Assembly (NCBI GenBank): GCA_013696965.1
Contig: JACCXN010000044.1
Span: forward strand, 70,756-134,755
Origin: Bacteroidota bacterium
GTDB lineage: Bacteria; Bacteroidota; Bacteroidia; JACCXN01
DNA: 64,000 nucleotides
Direction of reading: 5' to 3'
Numbering within the stretch: position 1 is the first letter of the stretch; every line of letters begins with the position of its first letter. A program made the translations under genes and the position numbers. Below, piece by piece: positions 8,489-64,000 of this stretch. Under the pieces are notes generated by a model. The model searched no databases and had not been told where the DNA came from. It saw nothing but the letters and a program-made list of their open reading frames with translations.

Positions 8489-8648
8489 AATTTATTTAAA
8501 TGTAAAAATGGCTTATCAAAATTAATTTTTTAAATTGTATTTCATCTGAAAATTACTAGTTTTTGACGTTTAAATTTAAACTTAATGTAATAATTTTATC
8601 CTTTGTTTGAAAAACAATATACTTTATCTAACCTTTAAAGTTTTTAAA

Positions 8649-9083
8649 TTAATCAATATAGTTTTTTTCTGCAATTTTGTTTATTATTTCCATTACTTCA
8701 AAAAAAACATCAATCTTTTCTTTAGAAACTTCTTCACGTACTTTTTTATTAAAGTTTTTTACGGTTTTTTTTGAAATTTCTCTTTTTATCATTCCTTGCT
8801 CTGTTAGAAAAATCTTCACCGCTCTTTTATCTTTAATATCCTGTTTTTTAATTATGAGTTTTTTGTCTTCAAGTGTTTTAAGCATTCTAGTAAGGCTGGT
8901 TGATTCCATGCCAATAAGTGCAGCAATTTGAGTTGCTGTAGTACCTTCTGTTTTATCTATATTTAATAAAACATAACCTATTGAGGCGGAAAGTTCAAAT
9001 GGAGAACCATTAGAATTATACATTCTGGCCACTGTGTACCATGATGTTTTAAGATTAAAACAGATGCTTTCTTTTTGCTTCAT
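8649..9083 (-). CDS. MarR-family transcriptional regulator, likely of the beta-oxidation genes
   Basis: 144 residues, the normal MarR length. The central winged helix-turn-helix runs from about residue 45 (TEGTTATQIAALIGMESTSL) through LTRMLKTLEDKKLI to the wing KQDIKDKRAVKIFLT. The C-terminal helices are Lys/Glu rich. It is the first gene on the minus strand ahead of the dehydrogenase/hydratase, thiolase and acyl-CoA dehydrogenase. Many such regulators respond to acyl-CoA or lipid signals, so it probably represses or tunes this cluster. A perfect palindrome 22 bp upstream of its start (9105-9126) is the likely operator and would make it autoregulated. Confidence 0.9.
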   Translation of the reverse strand: MKQKESICFNLKTSWYTVARMYNSNGSPFELSASIGYVLLNIDKTEGTTATQIAALIGMESTSLTRMLKTLEDKKLIIKKQDIKDKRAVKIFLTEQGMIKREISKKTVKNFNKKVREEVSKEKIDVFFEVMEIINKIAEKNYID

Positions 9084-9347: not shown

Positions 9348-11954
9348 TTAATTAAATTCTAAAGCCTTGTGAATATTATAAAGTACATGTTCCCTGTGGG
9401 CAATAACCTCATTGTTAATTCCTGGCTTTGCTTTGAGCAATTTTTCAACCTTGTTAATTTGGTATAGTACAATTGAAGATGTTCTGTGATCGTATTTTGA
9501 ATTGTCTTCTTCAATTACTTTAATCAATCTATTGATGTATTCCATTTGCAAATTTTGTCTGAATCCATTAACATTTGTATTAAGATCTTCTTTGAAAATG
9601 GCATCAGTTAAATCATTGAGCATTTCTGAAAGAGAATACTCATTCCCGTATAATTCACTATCATTTATTCTTTGAAGAACAGTTGGGTGAAGAATATGAT
9701 CAAATACATTTTTTTGAATTTGTAGAACCCGTGTATGAATTTTAGGATCTTCAGTTGCAGACATAAAGTTAAAACCCCTACGTTGCATTTGCAAGAAACT
9801 ATACAACTCAGAAGGAGTTTTAAAAGTAGAGGATGAGAAAACATATTTTGATAATGCCTGCATGGCTCTTTTTTGATCTTCGTAACTAACAGGATTAAAT
9901 GGAATTCCTGCCCCTGATTGACCGGAAAAAGACCTGTCTACATAAACTCCTCCAATGTATCTGGAAATAATCGATGAGGCTTTGTCTATTTCCATTGTAA
10001 GTAGGAGATAAGCATTGCGTAATTGATGGAATGATTCATCCTGAACAGAATATTTTTCCAGCAATTTATTTGTTAATCCATTTGCAAGGGTAATTCTTTC
10101 AACAGAGTATGTGATGGCATCGTTTGACATGTCGCCTATCATTACTCTTGGATCAATTCCTCTTCCTGGCTTTCGCATGTCATCACCATCATTGCCAAAC
10201 ATTAAAGCTGGTTCATTGGATCGGGAAAGAATAGTTTTAAGTCTTTGTTGTTCCTCGGTTTTATTCACTAAAGCTTCGGAATAGCCATATTGTATGGCCC
10301 ATTTATCATAGGGGCCTGGCTTAACAGTAAAATAATGACCTTGTTTTGTTTTGTCGGCAGAAAGATTAACAGCAGGATAATCCATCACAGAGCCACACAT
10401 TCCGGTTTTTGAAGTCAATTCTTTATTATGAATTTCCAATGGAGAATACAACTGACTCGCTTTCATATTATGATTCAAACCAAGCGTGTGGCCTACTTCA
10501 TGCAATACCAGGTAATACAGTGCGGATTTGATAAATTCCTCTTTTTCTTTTTCCTCTGCATCATTTACAACAAGTGAGGTTAAACCAAACAAACTGGAAG
10601 TGTGAAGGTGGTGTCCAAGAGAGCAAAAGTTTTCATCATCGTTTTCAAGCGTGCTTTCATGCATTAATCCAGCTGTTCCAAAAAGTGTTTCTTGCTTTAA
10701 TCTATTTGTGATTGAAACAAATTCAAGAATAATGTCAGCTCCAAGGATTTGCCCTGTACGAGGATTTACAAAACTTGGCCCATAACCCCCAAAGGGTGGG
10801 TTGGGGGAAGAAACCCACCGAATTACATTATACCTTATGTCCGATGCGTCCCAAAGAGCAGTATCTGGTTGAATATAAACTTCAATTGCGTTTTTAAAAC
10901 CAGCCTCTTCAAAGGCCTCATTCCATGCTAATACTGCAGACTCTATGGTTTTTCGGTATTCAACGGGGGTTGTGTTTTCAAGCCACCATACAATAGGGGT
11001 AACAGGTTCTGAAATTTTTTCTTTTTTATCTGTTTTTTCAAGATGCCAGCGGTGTATTAAATCCTTGTATGGGGTTGCACTTACCGAAGTCATATCGTTT
11101 ATTTCCCTTGTGAAAAAACCAACTCTTGGATCATCTTCCCTTGTTTTATAACCATTTTTAGGCATTTCAATAATACTGTGTTGTATTTTTATACTCACAG
11201 ACCTACCGTCAGTAACATCGCTACCGATTTTTGATGAGGATGATGGATTATCAAAAACGTATTCCACAATAATATTTGAATTTTTGGGAAAAGATTTGAT
11301 TTCTAGAAATTTGCTTTTGTATTTATTAAGAGAACCCAATGAAAATCCTCCACTCAACATTGCCATTAATCCCTGAGATTTTTTTATTTGTTGCAGGTAT
11401 TCTGAAAGAAAAATATCATCAGCCCTAACTAGAAATTGTGATTGGTCCTTGTCCTGCGCAATAATTGGTTGACTAATCATTGTTGATTTACTGATATTTG
11501 CATCAGCCGCTTTACTTAATGCATTTCTTTTGTCAAAATAAAAGGATGTGTTTTCAGTAACAAATTCAATTCTATTGAAATGTTTTTGTATTGTAAAAAC
11601 CTTATTGTCTTCATGGCTTCCTCTGTAATGACCCGTTGCAATAACCCCGTCAATAGTTTTGCTGAAATAAATGAATTCTTTATCCAATTGTTCTTTTTTT
11701 ACAAGCAAATAAACCGTGCCATTTACAGTATCCTGGTATAAATTCAATAAGCCCTCATACTTGTTACATCTTCTAATAACCGAGGCTATCGATTTAATAT
11801 CTTCTTTATCTACAATTACAGTTATCTCCTTTGTGTTTGCGACTAATGGATCCACTTTCTCTTTTTTTAAATTAAATTGAGCGGATGACTCAGAAAAAGA
11901 AAAAATAAAAAAAACGATTGGGATAAAAACGGGTAAACGAAGTTGGATTTTCAT
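9348..11954 (-). CDS. Exported zinc metalloprotease of the DUF5117/DUF5118 type
   Basis: 868 residues with a signal peptide (about residues 1-25, ending SSAQF). The gluzincin/metzincin motif HEVGHTLGLNH near residue 485 supplies three zinc-binding His and the catalytic Glu; GSVMDYPA some 35 residues later resembles the Met-turn. The region before it (residues ~45-230) matches the N-terminal domains seen in the large Bacteroidota zinc-dependent metalloproteases. The substrate is unknown; the location is periplasmic or outside the cell. It stands alone, with a 265-bp gap before marR. The 12-kb stretch to 16810 is all minus strand, but spacing suggests a separate transcript. Confidence 0.88.
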   Translation of the reverse strand: MKIQLRLPVFIPIVFFIFSFSESSAQFNLKKEKVDPLVANTKEITVIVDKEDIKSIASVIRRCNKYEGLLNLYQDTVNGTVYLLVKKEQLDKEFIYFSKTIDGVIATGHYRGSHEDNKVFTIQKHFNRIEFVTENTSFYFDKRNALSKAADANISKSTMISQPIIAQDKDQSQFLVRADDIFLSEYLQQIKKSQGLMAMLSGGFSLGSLNKYKSKFLEIKSFPKNSNIIVEYVFDNPSSSSKIGSDVTDGRSVSIKIQHSIIEMPKNGYKTREDDPRVGFFTREINDMTSVSATPYKDLIHRWHLEKTDKKEKISEPVTPIVWWLENTTPVEYRKTIESAVLAWNEAFEEAGFKNAIEVYIQPDTALWDASDIRYNVIRWVSSPNPPFGGYGPSFVNPRTGQILGADIILEFVSITNRLKQETLFGTAGLMHESTLENDDENFCSLGHHLHTSSLFGLTSLVVNDAEEKEKEEFIKSALYYLVLHEVGHTLGLNHNMKASQLYSPLEIHNKELTSKTGMCGSVMDYPAVNLSADKTKQGHYFTVKPGPYDKWAIQYGYSEALVNKTEEQQRLKTILSRSNEPALMFGNDGDDMRKPGRGIDPRVMIGDMSNDAITYSVERITLANGLTNKLLEKYSVQDESFHQLRNAYLLLTMEIDKASSIISRYIGGVYVDRSFSGQSGAGIPFNPVSYEDQKRAMQALSKYVFSSSTFKTPSELYSFLQMQRRGFNFMSATEDPKIHTRVLQIQKNVFDHILHPTVLQRINDSELYGNEYSLSEMLNDLTDAIFKEDLNTNVNGFRQNLQMEYINRLIKVIEEDNSKYDHRTSSIVLYQINKVEKLLKAKPGINNEVIAHREHVLYNIHKALEFN

Positions 11955-47037: not shown

Positions 47038-48588
47038 GTGAATAATGAATTAGTAATTAATTCCTCACCCAACGAGGTAGTAATAGCCCTGCTTGAGAAT
47101 AAAAGGCTGGTTGAATTACATAAGGAAAAGAGAAACAATGCTTTTTCTGTAGGTGATATTTATTTGGGAAAAGTAAAAAAGGTTATGACAGGGCTGAATG
47201 CAGCATTCGTGGATGTTGGATATGAGAAAGATGCCTTTTTACATTACCTTGATCTTGGTCCCCAAGTGCAATCTCTTTTCAAATACGTTAAAAATACCAG
47301 GAACGGAAAACAAAACCACTCCTCTTTATTGTATTTTAAAACAGAAGAAGATATACCCAAAACAGGAAAGATTAACCAAATAGTGCAAAGCGGCCAGGAA
47401 ATAATGGTTCAAATTGCAAAAGAACCTATTTCAACCAAAGGGCCAAGGATAAGTTCCGAAATTTCTTTACCTGGAAGATATATAGTACTTGTTCCTTTTT
47501 CTGACAGGATTTCTGTTTCTCAAAAAATAAAGGATTCCGAAGAAAAAGAAAGATTGAAAAATCTTATAAAGAGTATAAAACCTAAAAATTTTGGTGTAAT
47601 TATTCGAACAGTTGCTGAAAACAAGAAGGTTGCTGAACTTGATGCAGACATCAAAGATTTAGTTGACAAGTGGAATTCTTGTTATGAATCCTTAAAACCT
47701 GCTAAAGCTCCAGAAAAATTATTGGGAGAACTCGATAGAACTTCAGCTTTTTTAAGGGATATGCTAAATGCTTCATTTAACAATATCAATGTTGATGATC
47801 CTGCATTGTATGATGAAATGAAAACCTACCTTCAGACAATTGCCCCTGATAAGGAAAAAATTGTGAAGCAATATAAAGGCGACCTTCCAATTTTTGAATC
47901 CTTTGGGATTGAAAAGCAAATTAAAAGTCTTTTTGGAAAGACGGTGAATTTAAAAAGCGGAGCTTACCTAATTATTGAGCATACCGAGGCTTTGCACGTT
48001 ATTGATGTAAACAGTGGTAACAGGGCTAAATCTGAAACCAGCCAGGAGGGCAATGCACTGGATGTAAATTTAGAGGCAGCAACTGAAATTGCTCGTCAAT
48101 TAAGGTTAAGGGATATGGGTGGTATTATAGTGGTTGATTTTATTGACCTTCATGATGCTACTAACCGTAAATTGCTGTATCAGAAAATGAAGGATGAAAT
48201 GGCCTTGGATAAAGCCAAACATACTGTACTTCCTCCAAGTAAATTCGGGCTCATTCAAATTACCCGCCAGCGCGTAAGGCCTGAGATGGATATTAAAACC
48301 ACTGAAAAGTGCCCTGCCTGTGGGGGTTCTGGAGAGGTACAAGCAAGTATATTACTTGTAGATGAAATTGAAAACAATTTAAGGTACATCATACAGGAGC
48401 AGAATGAAAAATCGCTTACACTTGGTGTGCATCCTTATATTGAAGCCTATTTAACCAAGGGTATTTATAACTTCCAAATAAAATGGTTGTTCAAATATAA
48501 AAGGTGGATAAAAATTAAGCCAGTAAATGCTTATCATTTTGTTGAATACCGTTTTTTTAATGCGGCTCAGGAGGAAATAATAAAATAA
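47038..48588 (+). CDS. rng: Ribonuclease G (RNase E/G family)
   Basis: 516 residues; start is GTG at 47038, with MNNELVINSSPNEVVIALLE matching the family opening. It is an endoribonuclease for rRNA maturation and mRNA decay. An S1 domain (about 38-125, AFSVGDIYLGKVKKVMTGLN) is followed by the RNase H-like and catalytic DNase-I-like parts with HVIDVNSGNRAKS (~320) and MGGIIVVDFIDL (~362), the latter carrying the Mg-binding Asp. The zinc-link CPACGGSGEV near residue 422 joins monomers. No C-terminal scaffold as in E. coli RNase E. A terminator follows at 48595. Confidence 0.96.
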   Translation: MNNELVINSSPNEVVIALLENKRLVELHKEKRNNAFSVGDIYLGKVKKVMTGLNAAFVDVGYEKDAFLHYLDLGPQVQSLFKYVKNTRNGKQNHSSLLYFKTEEDIPKTGKINQIVQSGQEIMVQIAKEPISTKGPRISSEISLPGRYIVLVPFSDRISVSQKIKDSEEKERLKNLIKSIKPKNFGVIIRTVAENKKVAELDADIKDLVDKWNSCYESLKPAKAPEKLLGELDRTSAFLRDMLNASFNNINVDDPALYDEMKTYLQTIAPDKEKIVKQYKGDLPIFESFGIEKQIKSLFGKTVNLKSGAYLIIEHTEALHVIDVNSGNRAKSETSQEGNALDVNLEAATEIARQLRLRDMGGIIVVDFIDLHDATNRKLLYQKMKDEMALDKAKHTVLPPSKFGLIQITRQRVRPEMDIKTTEKCPACGGSGEVQASILLVDEIENNLRYIIQEQNEKSLTLGVHPYIEAYLTKGIYNFQIKWLFKYKRWIKIKPVNAYHFVEYRFFNAAQEEIIK

Positions 48589-48594
48589 AAGAGG

Positions 48595-48629
48595 CCGTCT
48601 CAAAAGTAAAATTTTGAGACGGTTTTTTT
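48595..48629 (+). terminator. Terminator after rng (also overlaps a possible IS end)
   Basis: Perfect 11-bp arms CCGTCTCAAAA (48595-48605) and TTTTGAGACGG (48612-48622), then seven T. It sits 6 bp past the rng stop. Confidence 0.85.
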
Positions 48630-48697: not shown

Positions 48698-49363
48698 TTA
48701 GGTAACAAAAAAGGCTCTGTGAACTGTTTTTAATGCTGACACCCATCTTTTCTTAATGTTATGGGCGATTGCAATAATGCCGAACTCTGTATTTACTTTC
48801 TTGATGCCTCTTAATCAAAAGCGCTTGAACTGCATGTTATGTTTTATTTGACTCGTTATCGTTTCTTTGTAATTTAATCTTTTGTTGTTCGGACAAATAT
48901 AACTGTCACTTGTTTCATCATATACCAGGTTTTCTAAACGATAAATGTTTTTCTTAAACTTTCTCGTCTGTTCATAATGGAAGTTCTGGAACTTTACATA
49001 TGCGGTGATCTCTTTCTCTTTTAAATATTCATAATTTTGCTTCACTTCCATAACCTGCATCTGCATTGATGTTTGAGGTAATTTTGGTAAATGATTTTCA
49101 AAAGCATTTTCAAGGTGCGGGATTAAAGTTGTGCTATCGGAAGGTTTTTGATGGATGCTATAAGATAAAATAAACCTGTCTTCTGTTGCCATCTGCACAT
49201 TGTAGCCAACCTTGAGTTGGCCATTTAACATATGATCTTCTTTCATTGGAATAACGGTTGCTTCCTGATCGGTCTTGCTGTAGCTAATACTATCGCCCAT
49301 AATTTCAAGATCAGTTTCATACTTTTCAAGCCGCGGCAGATAATCCTTTAGTTGAAGAAAAAA
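48698..49363 (-). pseudogene. C-terminal part of an IS1182-family transposase, broken
   Basis: The minus-strand frame from 49363 reads QLKDYLPRLEKYETDLEIMG, then YSKTDQEATVIPMKEDHMLN, GYNVQMATEDRFILSYSIHQ and on to HNMQFKRF, a stop, and LRGIKKVNTEFGIIAIAHNI, the typical IS1182 ending, finishing at 48700. So there is one in-frame TGA inside the conserved C-terminus and the whole N-terminal part is missing. The DDE-type core residues around GYNVQMATED are partly present. It cannot encode an active enzyme. Its missing N-terminus appears to lie at 51766-51867. Confidence 0.85.
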
Positions 49364-51954: not shown

Positions 51955-51990
51955 AAAAAAAAGAGGCCATCCTTTTGGGACAGCCTCTAT
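51955..51990 (-). terminator. Terminator after the PA2169-family gene (also overlaps a possible IS end)
   Basis: On the minus strand GAGGC (51987-51983) pairs with GCCTC (51967-51963) around an imperfect inner stem GTCCCAAAAGGAT, followed by a run of T (51962-51955). It is 36 bp past the stop at 52027. Confidence 0.65.
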
Positions 51991-52026
51991 TATTTTATTA
52001 TACTTAATCCTATCCTTCAATTTAAT

Positions 52027-54253: not shown

Positions 54254-54508
54254 GGTTATTTGGCCTTACCCACTTTTCTAGAAAGTCACGATTAGTTTCG
54301 AATAGCACAACGGAAATGAATAGTGGCAGTTGGGCGGTGCGTGAGGGTGTTTGTTTTTTTCAATAGAGGTGGGATGAAAAATCAATATTCTTCTTGGGAG
54401 AGTTAGAAGCTTATTTGCAATTTTTGGTTTGAGAGCACGGCTTGCGGGAATTGCGAATATGCTTTTAACTGTGAAATAGTTTGCATTTCAATTAAAGACT
54501 TTTTGGTA

Positions 54509-54845
54509 TTATTGTTCAAGTAACAGATTGATTCCTGTTTCTAGATTACCTAATTCTCTTATAACTATTGCCCAAATTATTTCATCGGAAACGGTGTCAT
54601 ATCCGTGAATAACTTTATTTCTGGTATCAATTATCTTTCTTGCATTAACAATAGGAAAATCTGGATTTGATTAAAGGATTCTGTTCACGGCCTCTCCAAT
54701 TATTTCAATATTTCTCTCAATCGCTCTTTTTGTTTTAAGGACTCTTTGAAAAACATAAAAGTCTTTTTTATCTGGAAGAAAAACATTAAATTTCTGAAAT
54801 TGCTTGCTTTATGTCTGCAAGCCAAGTCATGATTTCATTTTCCAT
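54509..54845 (-). pseudogene. hepT: HepT-like HEPN ribonuclease toxin, broken
   Basis: Starting at the ATG at 54845, the minus strand reads MENEIMTWLADIKQAISEI, then a 1-nt shift, then NVFLPDKKDFYVFQRVLKTK, RAIERNIEIIGEAVNRIL and an in-frame TAA. It continues SNPDFPIVNARKIIDTRNKV, IHGYDTVSDEIIWAIVIREL and ends at 54509. The catalytic HEPN motif R-x4-H is intact in RNKVIHGYD, but the protein cannot be made whole. HepT is the toxin of the HepT-MntA module. The start overlaps the mntA stop by 11 bp, the usual operon layout. Confidence 0.88.
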
Positions 54846-55143
54846 AAATCAAGACTTTTGTTTTATCTATTTGTTCTTTAAGAAAGGGATTCCTAATCGC
54901 CTTTTGCTCTAATAAATCAATTTGTCTATGAAGTAGGTTTTCTAACTGAAATTTCAAATTAAAATAACTGTCTGAATAGGAAATTGGATCATTTTCTTCA
55001 ATATCAACTACTAAATCAATGTCACTATCCGGTCTGTACTTGTCCGATGTGATTGATCCAAATGCAAATAAAGTTTTAACCTTGTTCAGATAGCAAAGTT
55101 TTTTTATTTGGTCTATATGGGTAGTAATCTCTCTCATAGTCAT
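54835..55143 (-). CDS. mntA: MntA-like minimal nucleotidyltransferase antitoxin
   Basis: 102 residues, intact. FAFGSITSDKYRPDSDIDLV contains the GS-x10-D-x-D motif of the DNA-polymerase-beta superfamily, which binds NTP and metal. MntA proteins neutralise the HEPN toxin HepT by modifying it with AMP. The C-terminal half (LENLLHRQIDLLEQKAIRNP) fits the same family. First gene of the pair, ahead of a toxin that is broken here. A second Met at 55137 could be the start instead. Confidence 0.9.
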   Translation of the reverse strand: MTMREITTHIDQIKKLCYLNKVKTLFAFGSITSDKYRPDSDIDLVVDIEENDPISYSDSYFNLKFQLENLLHRQIDLLEQKAIRNPFLKEQIDKTKVLIYGK

Positions 55144-55451
55144 AAATGTACAAATTTTGTCAATTGTAATCTTAATTTCAGACTATTCTGATTAAAAATC
55201 GCAGAAAATGGGGCAGTGGAAATGGCTCTTTTTGTTTTTTTTGCGGGAAAAAATTTATGTGATTTGGCAAAAATAAAATGTGCCATTTCTTGGGATGGCA
55301 ATATTGATTTTTTAGTGCGTGAGGAAAAAAACAAGCAAGAAGCGATGGCATCTCCAGGTGTTGAAAGTTTGCAGAGAAGTTAACAAATGAAAAAGGCAAA
55401 AAAGGCCTGCAAGCCTTTGATACTTTTTGCTCTAAAAGGCTGACGCATAAC

Positions 55452-60457: not shown

Positions 60458-62398
60458 ATGGAACAAGTAATTTTTAAGAAGCTTTTTCACAGGGGGAATT
60501 TTCAAATTGGCATTGTTTTTAGGCGCAATAATGAAATAGTAGAAAAACTAAAAACAATATTTTCACTCTGGAGTAAGACCCACAAATGTTGGTATGTTAA
60601 ATACAGCAAGGAGAATTACCAAAAACTTAAAGTTATATTTAATGATTCAGAAATAACCATTGAAAAACCGGAAGGGACACATACAGTTTTGGAGCCTGGT
60701 TTGGAAACTCACCAAGAAAATGCTCCCATAGAATCCAGCAATGGAATCGCACTTCAGCAGTTAGAAAATGATGAACATAATTCTTTCATAGAGAATGAAG
60801 GTTTAAGGGAAGAGCCTACTAGTTTGAAAGCTACTTCTCCACCAAATGTGTTGGCCAAAGGAATTTTAGATATTCAGGAGTCTGGCTTGGAAAAGGACCA
60901 GGAAAATGCTCCCGTAGAATCCAACAAGGGAATGGCCGTTCAGGAAATTGAAATTGATGGACAAAATAAAGAACAAGCAGGGTTAAAAGCAAAGTTTGAA
61001 GTGCATCCCGATATTGGAAAATATTGGGTGCTGAGTTTGGCTTATTCCAGACCAATAAGCATTGCCATGCTTAAAATCAAGGGTGTTTATTGGAGTAATA
61101 ATTACAAAGTGTATATGATTTTTCGTCATGTAAACGTAAAGAATAAGGTGGAGGCTTTGCTTGGCATAAAAGATCTTTTGCCTAGTAATTACTATGTAAA
61201 TGAACAGAATGACAAATTTACTGCCGGGGAAATAATTATCAGTGTATTTCTAAGTGGAAAAAAATGGATGAAAGTTCAGCTCCCGGAAATTGCTGCCATA
61301 ATTAACCAGGTTAAACGATTACAGGGAAGTAAATATAACATGGATGAAATGGTATATTTGCTTCCCGCGACACCCGGAGTACTTAAAAATTTAGCGATAA
61401 TTGCAGAACAGTTCGGCATCAAAGTTATAAATGAGCTTCCAAATGGATATGCTAATACAAGGAATGAATTAAACATAAAAAGTATTAAACTTCAGGAGGC
61501 CGCAGAAAATTTACGCAAGCAGGTTCCTGCATCGTCAGAGATTTATCTCACTTCAATGCTGGATTATCTATTGGCAAATAATTACAGTCACAATACCATC
61601 CGCGTTTACACATCATCATTTATTCAATTTTTGAGGCATTTTGGCTATAAAAATCCTGATGATTTAAGTCAGAATGATGTAGTAAAATATTTAGGAAAAA
61701 TGATGCTCAAGGGGCTGTCCGCATCTGCGGGTCACTCCCTGGTAAATGCACTGTTGTTTTATTACCGGAATGTATTAAAGCGAGAGCGTTTTGAAATAGA
61801 TTTACCCAGACCAAAAAAAGAAAAAAAACTTCCAGTAGTATTAACTATGGCAGAGTGCTTTAGTGTTTTTGCTGCCATAAAAAATCCTAAACACAAGTTG
61901 TTGTTGCTATTGGCCTATGGAACAGGTTTGCGGTTAAGTGAACTAACGCATTTAAAATGGGAAGACATTTTGTGGGCAGAATATAAAATACACGTAAAAC
62001 AGGCAAAAGGCAAAAAGGATAGAATTGTAGGATTACCACATTCCATCGTTGTTTATTTAGAGCATTATCGATCACTATATCCGAGTGCAATTTGGGTATT
62101 TGAGGGCCAATATAAAGATGAACCGTATAGTTCAAGGAGCGTACAAGCAGTAATGAAAAGAGCCATAACCGAAGCCGGCCTGGAAAAAAATGCCACAGTT
62201 CATACTTTACGGCATAGTTTTGCCACACATTTATTAGAATCCGGAACAGATATTCGATATATACAGCAATTGCTTGGTCACAACAGCATACAAACCACAA
62301 CTATATATACTCATTTAACAAGCAAAGCAGCCAAAAAGATCCAAAGTCCATTAGACAACATGGCACATCAGATAGTAAATAAAAAGAAGCTAGAATAA
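60458..62398 (+). CDS. Tyrosine recombinase with an unusual N-terminus of three repeated domains
   Basis: 646 residues. The last ~300 are a XerC/D-type integrase: a SAM-like core-binding domain (about 355-440, with NNYSHNTIRVYTSSFIQFL) and a catalytic domain with Arg in GTGLRLSELTHLKWED, the box HTLRHSFATHLLE near 582, LLGHNSIQTTTIYTHL and the Tyr nucleophile near 617. The extra domain that marks integron IntI proteins is not present. The first ~330 residues hold three weakly similar alpha/beta units (CWYVKYSKENYQKLK; SNNYKVYMIFRHVN; EMVYLLPATPGVLK) that might be DNA-binding; a HARP-like fold is only a guess. Two linker copies (QENAPIESSNG, QENAPVESNKG) separate the first two. It lies 139 bp before unit 2. 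Confidence 0.88.
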   Translation: MEQVIFKKLFHRGNFQIGIVFRRNNEIVEKLKTIFSLWSKTHKCWYVKYSKENYQKLKVIFNDSEITIEKPEGTHTVLEPGLETHQENAPIESSNGIALQQLENDEHNSFIENEGLREEPTSLKATSPPNVLAKGILDIQESGLEKDQENAPVESNKGMAVQEIEIDGQNKEQAGLKAKFEVHPDIGKYWVLSLAYSRPISIAMLKIKGVYWSNNYKVYMIFRHVNVKNKVEALLGIKDLLPSNYYVNEQNDKFTAGEIIISVFLSGKKWMKVQLPEIAAIINQVKRLQGSKYNMDEMVYLLPATPGVLKNLAIIAEQFGIKVINELPNGYANTRNELNIKSIKLQEAAENLRKQVPASSEIYLTSMLDYLLANNYSHNTIRVYTSSFIQFLRHFGYKNPDDLSQNDVVKYLGKMMLKGLSASAGHSLVNALLFYYRNVLKRERFEIDLPRPKKEKKLPVVLTMAECFSVFAAIKNPKHKLLLLLAYGTGLRLSELTHLKWEDILWAEYKIHVKQAKGKKDRIVGLPHSIVVYLEHYRSLYPSAIWVFEGQYKDEPYSSRSVQAVMKRAITEAGLEKNATVHTLRHSFATHLLESGTDIRYIQQLLGHNSIQTTTIYTHLTSKAAKKIQSPLDNMAHQIVNKKKLE

Positions 62399-62536
62399 TT
62401 AACCCCAATTGTTTAGTAGCTTTAATAAAAACAATTCAAATAAAAATTAATTTACCATTAAATTTTTGCCTAAATTGGCAGAAGCAAAAACAGAAAAACT
62501 TTTAAAAAAGTACTATGTTTATTCCGATATTTAAGA

Positions 62537-63875
62537 GTTATAAGCAAGCCTAGGGGGCTGTGCAGCAAACCCTTGTCTAGCAAGCCGCACCGCCCTTTGC
62601 CTATCCTTCTGTATTTTTTTATTTTTCCCCTCACGCACTTTTTTTAATTTAATTTTTGCCATTGCACACAAATGCCACATTTACTTTTGCCCTTCCCGCG
62701 AAAACCCTTCCCACCTTGCAAAAGTAAAAGAGGCATTTCTCCCACCCCTTAAACAAAAACCAAAAGTGCCATTATTCTTTTATTGCGTTTGTTTTTTTAA
62801 TTTTTTTAATAATTTATTTTTGTCTTTAAGAGTTTTAGCATCAGGAACTTTAGAAACAATTTGTCTGACAGTGGTTATTGAAGTGTTGAATTTAGTTGCT
62901 AATTCCTGTGCACTGTTTCCTTTTGAAAACAAGGCAATAATTGATTTTTCAAATTCTTGTTTTTTTAATTGTTTTATAGTTTTTTTTCTGACAAGAAATA
63001 ATTTTGCTCCTTGTTCTCTAATAATAACGAGTCTTATAGCTTCTGGAGTAAGCCTATATTTCATTGCTATTTCCTTTATTGACTTTCCTGCCATATAGGA
63101 CTTAATAATCTGTTTATTGCGTTCTATTCTTTCATGATTAATTTTATATTTTACTATATTTTCTTTTTTATAGACTTCTATTTCTTTTGTAAGTATTTCA
63201 GTATTTCCTTGTATTTTATCACGGAGATAAATAATATACTCCTTTTCCTTCTTAAGCTTAGATTTCACTATATTTATTGAATGAAGTACTGTTGCATGAT
63301 TTCGATTAAAAACTTGACCAGCTTTTATACTAGTGAATTTTAAATCATTTACTAAGAAATAAAAAATCAAAGCCCGGCAATATACAACTTCTTGTTTTCT
63401 AGTTTTAGAAGAAAGTATTTTTGGATTTAGTCTAAAATAATTGCAAACTAATTTGATTAGCTTTTCAGTTTCTTTTTCAGGCGAATTAATTAATTCCATT
63501 TAATTAAAGTTTCAATTAAGTTGATTTGCTATTCTTACAATCTTACGCTAAATAAATTAAAAACACATAATAATCCAAAACAAATTAATTTTATAAATTT
63601 CCATTATCTAAAGAGTGAATGACTGGAAACAGCCAGCCCACGGGAAAAGCACATTTCCAATTCACACCGCCAACCGCTCAAACCAAAAATTGTAAATAAG
63701 CTTCTCCCTTTCCTCCCCAAGAAAATTAAATTAAAAAAATCCCCCCTCAAAAATAAAAAAATACCCAAGTCGCACTAGCCATGCAAAGTATAGTACAGAC
63801 AATTAAGCACTATTCATAAAAGCCTTTGATAATGCAGCTTTCCAAGCATTAATGAACATAAGGCCAGCTTATAAC
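62537..63875. mobile_element. Cassette-like unit 2, carrying the DnaA-domain-IV protein gene
   Basis: Bounded by the 15-bp inverted repeats GTTATAAGCAAGCCT (62537-62551) and AGGCCAGCTTATAAC (63861-63875), which match at 13 of 15 positions. Read on the minus strand it has the same left end as unit 1 (GTTAT, GGCCTTA, ATGAATAGTG, GTGCG, GAAGCTTATTT, CAATTTTTGGTTTGAG). It then has a gene, then the same right end (GAAATGCCTCTTTT, GCGGGAA, GGCAAAAGTAAATGTG, AGTGCGTGAGG). Orientation relative to unit 1 is reversed. The gene inside reads towards the right end, unlike in unit 1. Confidence 0.65.
62780..63499 (-). CDS. Protein with a stand-alone DnaA domain IV and two helix-turn-helix segments
   Basis: 239 residues, cytoplasmic. 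Residues ~10-75 match DnaA domain IV, the box-binding domain: LVCNYFRLNPKILSSKTRKQ, YCRALIFYFLVNDLKFTS, then NRNHATVLHSINIVKSKL, where the NHATVLHSI stretch corresponds to the DnaA-box-recognition helix. The AAA+ ATPase domain III is absent, so it cannot be a functional initiator by itself. Two probable helix-turn-helix segments follow, at ~125-155 (YMAGKSIKEIAMKYRLTPEA) and ~190-220 (SKGNSAQELATKFNTSITTV). The whole is rich in Lys. It fills cassette-like unit 2. Possible role: binding DnaA-box-like or unit-end DNA. Confidence 0.8.
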   Translation of the reverse strand: MELINSPEKETEKLIKLVCNYFRLNPKILSSKTRKQEVVYCRALIFYFLVNDLKFTSIKAGQVFNRNHATVLHSINIVKSKLKKEKEYIIYLRDKIQGNTEILTKEIEVYKKENIVKYKINHERIERNKQIIKSYMAGKSIKEIAMKYRLTPEAIRLVIIREQGAKLFLVRKKTIKQLKKQEFEKSIIALFSKGNSAQELATKFNTSITTVRQIVSKVPDAKTLKDKNKLLKKLKKQTQ

Positions 63876-63876
63876 A

Positions 63877-63991
63877 TTGCATATCCTCAAGTGGCGGTCT
63901 AGGTGCTCTATTGCAAAGCCTTTGATTTCTATTAACTTTGCTGCTCGCGGTTTTTGGTTCGGTGCAATAATCGCCACCTGCGTATATGCAA
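63877..63991. repeat. Long imperfect palindrome abutting unit 2
   Basis: TTGCATAT (63877-63884), 6 nt, GTGGCG (63891-63896) face CGCCAC (63972-63977), 6 nt, ATATGCAA (63984-63991). Both arms keep the same 8+6+6 spacing. A further ATTGCA/TGCAAT pair lies inside (63910-63915, 63963-63968). It starts 1 bp beyond the end of unit 2 and is cut off only by the window end at its right flank. Folding into a bulged hairpin recalls attC sites, but the core sequences do not match a known attC. Confidence 0.6.
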
Positions 63992-64000
63992 ATAACGTTA

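Follow-up and report, generated by a model that had tools for sequence, protein, structure and literature searches.

A candidate integron lineage in Bacteroidia with an integrase that lacks the I2 region

We analyzed the terminal 64,000 nucleotides of a contig (C44) from a Bacteroidota genome, hereafter the window, and conclude that it very probably holds the start of an integron, consisting of an integrase gene, an attI site, and an array of cassettes that each end in an attC hairpin (Table 1). Integrons are natural gene-capture systems known for the spread of antibiotic resistance. The integrase represents a lineage that is widespread in Bacteroidia, lacks the IntI-specific I2 region, and carries an N-terminal domain instead; judged from its sequence, the system is an integron variant overlooked by surveys, with an integrase that is missing a part thought to be essential. 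Evidence for this reading comes from attC arrays, complementarity within individual cassettes, a covarying hairpin, an attI next to the integrase, co-orientation, and the sharp edges of shared cassettes. The original prediction had described two units with similar ends and unrelated cargo as a candidate cassette-like mobile family that did not follow an integron pattern; the pattern is that of an integron. The window breaks off inside the array, and many other contigs of the genome likewise start or finish in the repeat.

Table 1. Features of the integron region and of the isolated unit 1, in window coordinates
Feature	Position	Strand	Description
Integrase gene	60458..62398	+	646-aa tyrosine recombinase: SAM-like core-binding and catalytic domains, long N-terminal extension, without I2
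N-terminal extension	60470..61411	+	Three predicted beta-beta-alpha-beta-(beta)-alpha segments, residues ~5-61, 176-238, 258-318
Putative attI	62463..62540	+	Insertion point G62537^T62538
First cassette (unit 2 with its own attC)	62538..63997	+	Runs away from the integrase
5' conserved cassette block (RE, reverse complement)	62538..62780	+	From alignment of 5' blocks
Stem-loop within 5' block	62669..62739	+	19 bp, 3x3 internal loop; equivalents on other contigs
Cargo gene of unit 2	62780..63499	-	DnaA domain IV and helix-turn-helix repeats, 239 aa; PF08299 2e-14 and HTH families
3' conserved cassette block (LE, reverse complement)	63640..63866	+	From alignment of 3' blocks
attC-like hairpin	63867..64000	+	To contig end; crossover expected after G63997
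Unit 1	54255..55451	-	Both conserved blocks, without attC; isolated
Cargo of unit 1	54835..55143	-	Polbeta/MntA-type nucleotidyltransferase; PF18765 3.8e-15; NF047752 6.9e-13, below cut-off

A hairpin repeat of ~135 bp, unseen in the original prediction, lies next to almost every copy of the left end and accompanies such units on 23 of the genome's contigs, in the order GTT start, 5' block (RE), gene, 3' block (LE), terminal AAC, hairpin, and GTT of the next unit. We searched for it with two models, R1, built from the local attC, and R2, built from 40 diverse sites with 17 stem pairs. The window attC scored 93.3 bits with R2 (E=8e-21), the sole match below E=0.4 in the window, and was also matched by R1 (contig C44, 134622-134755). 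The source genome contains 44 to 50 attC matches (44 by R1), arranged so that every tandem cassette terminates in an attC that has R'' and R' boxes. All 17 stem pairs of R2 showed double-sided changes, and pairing was 93% versus 59% when shuffled and at most 46% when slid. At the one site compared, the bottom strand folded more stably than the top (-30.1 versus -21.2 kcal/mol). An Rfam search with the repeat returned no family matches.

Complementarity between cassette starts and R'' boxes, a classical property of integron cassettes when it holds within each cassette, was pronounced. The bases following GTT matched the reverse complement of the bases preceding AAC in the same unit at 88%, versus 49% when shuffled (13 pairs; 0 of 20,000 shuffles as high), and further sets gave 91% versus 47% (25 pairs) and 88% versus 44% (35 pairs). 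Cassettes at other loci gave 91% versus 40% over 98 pairs, 82 of them perfect. The R'' and R' boxes of one attC match at only 55%, which fits cassettes and not simple palindromic repeats. The first cassette begins with GTTATAAGC, to which the R'' of this cassette (GCTTATAAC, preceding the attC) is complementary.

The position of the array relative to the integrase gene is equally regular. The start GTTATAAG, predicted from the R'' of the first cassette, was found exactly 139 bp past the integrase stop, and in 31 of 39 other loci the predicted start was found exactly within 600 bp after the stop, mostly at ~105 bp. The attI motif of these loci resembles TATATACAA, with insertion at ^GTT; the window attI deviates from this consensus, and the window integrase forms a long branch in the tree. 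Among 78 related integrase genes, 143 of 145 attC matches were downstream and on the integrase strand. Downstream attC sites were present in 38 of the 48 loci where 1.5 kb or more of sequence was available on that side, and upstream sites on the integrase strand in 1 of 75. The integrase loci include named species of Flavobacterium, Kaistella, Cyclobacterium, Belliella, Pedobacter, Schleiferia, and others.

The integrase matches PF00589 (1.4e-38) and PF13495 (8e-12). It scored 223.6 bits against the IntI profile TIGR02249, under the curated cut-off of 265, and was also below the cut-offs of the XerC and XerD profiles (TIGR02224, 161.8 versus 335 bits; TIGR02225, 156.6 versus 330 bits). Its best PDB match by sequence is an integron integrase (2A3V), of which 67 chain residues are reduced to 25. 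In the I2 region, IntI1 exceeds the window protein and related Bacteroidota proteins by 31 plus 10 residues, and the I2 insertion was absent from all 33 family sequences aligned. TIGR02249 profile positions 178 to 239 were unmatched, and the predicted structure has just a short loop there. The catalytic residues R492, K517, H582, R585, H608, and Y617 are invariant across the family.

AlphaFold predicted a confident fold for a typical relative of 374 aa, with one N-terminal beta-alpha domain; in the model of the window integrase there seem to be three such segments, with low confidence in places. No relative with the 646-aa N-terminal architecture was found in named genomes. HARP and DUF5710 were considered as identities for the N-terminal domain, and each gave just weak matches below cut-off. 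Many family members are covered by NCBIfam NF040815, and NCBI already uses its name, “site-specific tyrosine recombinase/integron integrase.” A second I2-less integrase of 375 aa in the same genome (L074:2324-3448, minus strand) has its own array, whose attC is of a different subtype, near that of other Bacteroidia families.

We infer that the I2-less integrase is the recombinase and that the folded strand is its substrate. In this scheme the enzyme would cleave attC at G^TT on its folded bottom strand, and excised cassettes would be re-inserted at attI or between attC sites. The reported requirement of IntI1 for I2 in cassette capture (cited in PMC7790495) means that another recombinase, or recombination on double strands, might be at work here. 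The absence of I2, together with the alignment of the family to Xer and XerA structures, is the reason for considering an integron-like layout in which recombination is of the Xer/dif type, on double-stranded palindromic sites. We regard this as unlikely, though with an appreciable chance, given the long covarying stem, the strand-biased folding, and the one-base mismatches; moreover, own-cassette complementarity is understandable if the cassette is a circle that folds at its attC.

Cassettes in the sampled arrays had a median length of 916 bp; of their 142 ORFs, 129 were directed away from the integrase, unlike the DnaA-like gene of unit 2. Besides many unknowns, the cassettes carry genes for restriction-modification, nucleotidyltransferase, metal, and transport functions. 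Two gene-less cassettes of ~300 bp each occupy L019:130-965. Pieces of group II introns, which are known near the cassette arrays of other integrons, were observed in or beside arrays (L019:4245-4322; L101:3551-3722, 8612-8783, and 10274-10354). One cassette of 1,455 bp is common to genomes of two families (G048 and G097) at 96.6% identity; the shared stretch begins at GTT and diverges right past the GTT at its far end. Another is duplicated in a single array, with 99.7% identity over 1,089 bp. These near-identical copies, the intact catalytic residues, and the perfect complementarity of most start/R'' pairs make it improbable that the arrays are defunct and persist only as relic repeats without current mobility, as might be thought from the lack of attC in unit 1, the several contigs with attC but no integrase, and a shortened integrase at L065.

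Several elements of the original prediction were borne out. The left ends of units 1 and 2 are alike (local alignment score 118 against at most 61 in 200 shuffles, with 62% identity over 295 columns), as are the right ends (score 87 against at most 58 when shuffled, with 59% identity over 244 columns), and the left-end core, with up to 3 mismatches, occurs in 22 copies in the genome versus 0 in a reversed control. The cargo is indeed unrelated, and the view of the units as cassette-like and moved in trans is supported. What the prediction missed is the tyrosine-recombinase gene directly adjoining unit 2. The inverted outermost bases GTTAT and ATAAC are present as described but represent the core boxes R' and R'' of an integron. 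The end assigned to unit 2 (63875) had to be moved outward to include the hairpin. The refuting outcome named beforehand, ends that occur independently of discrete units, was not what we observed: LE and RE sit in discrete units at near-constant offsets (~160 bp from the 3' end and 176 to 187 bp from the 5' start, respectively), and the sharp GTT-core edges of the cassette common to two families also oppose it.

We rejected the proposal that LE and RE are the ends of a mobile or recombining element, because the arrays of other Bacteroidia families examined have only attC and complementary core boxes, with no LE/RE-type conserved flanks found. In the source genome, LE and RE are confined to the main cassette type, and most full cassettes of that type share alignable blocks of ~285 bp (5') and ~220 bp (3'). 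A covarying 19-bp stem-loop sits upstream of the cassette genes; in a 13-sequence alignment of the 5' block, 8 of its pairs had changes in both partners, a number that none of 500 shuffles reached. With the 5' stem-loop and the 3' block flanking the gene, LE and RE may serve cassette expression; a role of the 5' (RE) stem in expression or protection is our guess.

Unit 1, which starts with GTTATGCGTCAGCC and ends with AAGGCCAAATAAC on the minus strand, looks like a cassette relic without attC, and no R2 match was found near it. Its terminal AAATAAC (window positions 54255-54265) corresponds to the last bases of the local attC, which makes loss of the hairpin by deletion plausible on this comparison. 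Because unit 1 has LE and RE without attC, and both blocks are conserved in the source genome only, they could be the ends of a separate small mobile element for which the attC arrays are merely a landing place. This is likewise improbable: LE and RE keep a near-constant distance within attC-bounded cassettes, arrays elsewhere move without them, and the gene-less cassettes retain boxes and attC. Elsewhere in the window, an inverted pair with 90% complementarity (48577-48606 and 51972-52001) brackets 3.4 kb that include a transposase-like ORF (48815-49300, minus strand); the pair looks like IS ends enclosing other genes.

The system is common across the group. With R2, sites were detected in 209 of 295 sampled Bacteroidia genomes (E<=1e-3) and, across the phylum, in 141 of 296 genomes (E<=1e-5), some of the genomes counted having also contributed sites to the models. 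Scoring was limited to 11 candidates in each genome, which makes per-genome attC counts lower bounds. R1 had matches in 22 of 60 relatives. A profile of the I2-less integrase (E<=1e-80) matched 146 of the 295 Bacteroidia genomes, 137 of which also had attC (odds ratio 16, p=2.8e-19), and 72 had attC matches without an integrase above threshold. On a Chryseobacterium plasmid, R2 detected 7 sites, all on the integrase strand; it had no matches on a Sinorhizobium plasmid. Canonical IntI (TIGR02249 above cut-off) was found in 1 of the 295 Bacteroidia and not in the source genome. The sites do resemble attC, and known integrons use IntI, but these counts and the presence of the I2-less gene at the attI end of the arrays make it very improbable that an I2-bearing IntI elsewhere moves the cassettes and that the neighboring recombinase is incidental. 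The idea that the units are ordinary intergenic repeats with chance-like GTTAT/ATAAC ends has nothing in its favor beyond the repeat nature of the sequences, is contradicted by all the complementarity, covariation, and synteny tests, and can be dismissed.

The putative integron has much in common with sedentary chromosomal integrons (Vibrio cholerae IntIA, PDB 2A3V) and class 1 integrons (IntI1), including the integrase, attI, tandem cassettes, and attC hairpins with R''/R' boxes. Like IntI systems, it has a probable G^TT cut, cassette starts complementary to their own R'', mostly co-directed genes, diverse cargo, gene-less cassettes, and group II introns nearby. Unlike IntI, the integrase lacks I2, has an extra N-terminal domain, points toward the array, and falls below the IntI cut-off. 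R2 had no matches on a class 1 integron plasmid, and the IntI1 plasmid search returned near-identical IntI1 alone. Several contigs of the source genome would resemble CALINs, but an integrase is present here, without the domain by which surveys recognize IntI. The catalytic fold is shared with XerA and XerC/D, which act with dif; unlike these, the family forms a separate clade (99 SH-aLRT), is tied to attC arrays, and is not expected to have a dif role. Rhizobial IS91-associated tyrosine recombinases have a related catalytic domain and likewise lack I2 but adjoin an IS91 transposase and have no attC array.

A quick tree united the I2-less family with IntI and the IS91-associated recombinase in one group apart from Xer/XerA (99 SH-aLRT); IntI was placed beside part of the I2-less family at weak support (85; three IntI sequences only). 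Where PMC7790495 treats I2, it is described as unique to IntI, with no ancestor or intermediate known. We tentatively propose, with somewhat less than even confidence, that the I2-less Bacteroidota integrases recombine folded attC by another solution, perhaps through the N-terminal domain, for which HARP-like similarity is weak. The I2-less group may have given rise to canonical IntI as a side branch, so the lineage would preserve a pre-I2 state or represent an independent origin of single-strand cassette recombination.

In integron surveys, the additional domain serves to select the integrases (PMC2426708, PMC9024848), and Bacteroidota integrons would have been missed because of this selection on I2; IntegronFinder 2.0 names one complete integron in Bacteroidetes proper (Salinibacter ruber). 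The literature searched, which left out preprints and most subscription journals, contained no description of such an I2-less integron lineage, which is not proof of novelty. If our reading is correct, a major phylum has integrons in half or more of the sampled Bacteroidia genomes, including one on a Chryseobacterium plasmid, where standard surveys report almost none, and their cassettes move between families. Natural I2-less integrases beside their sites would make the question of whether I2 is necessary for cassette recombination testable.
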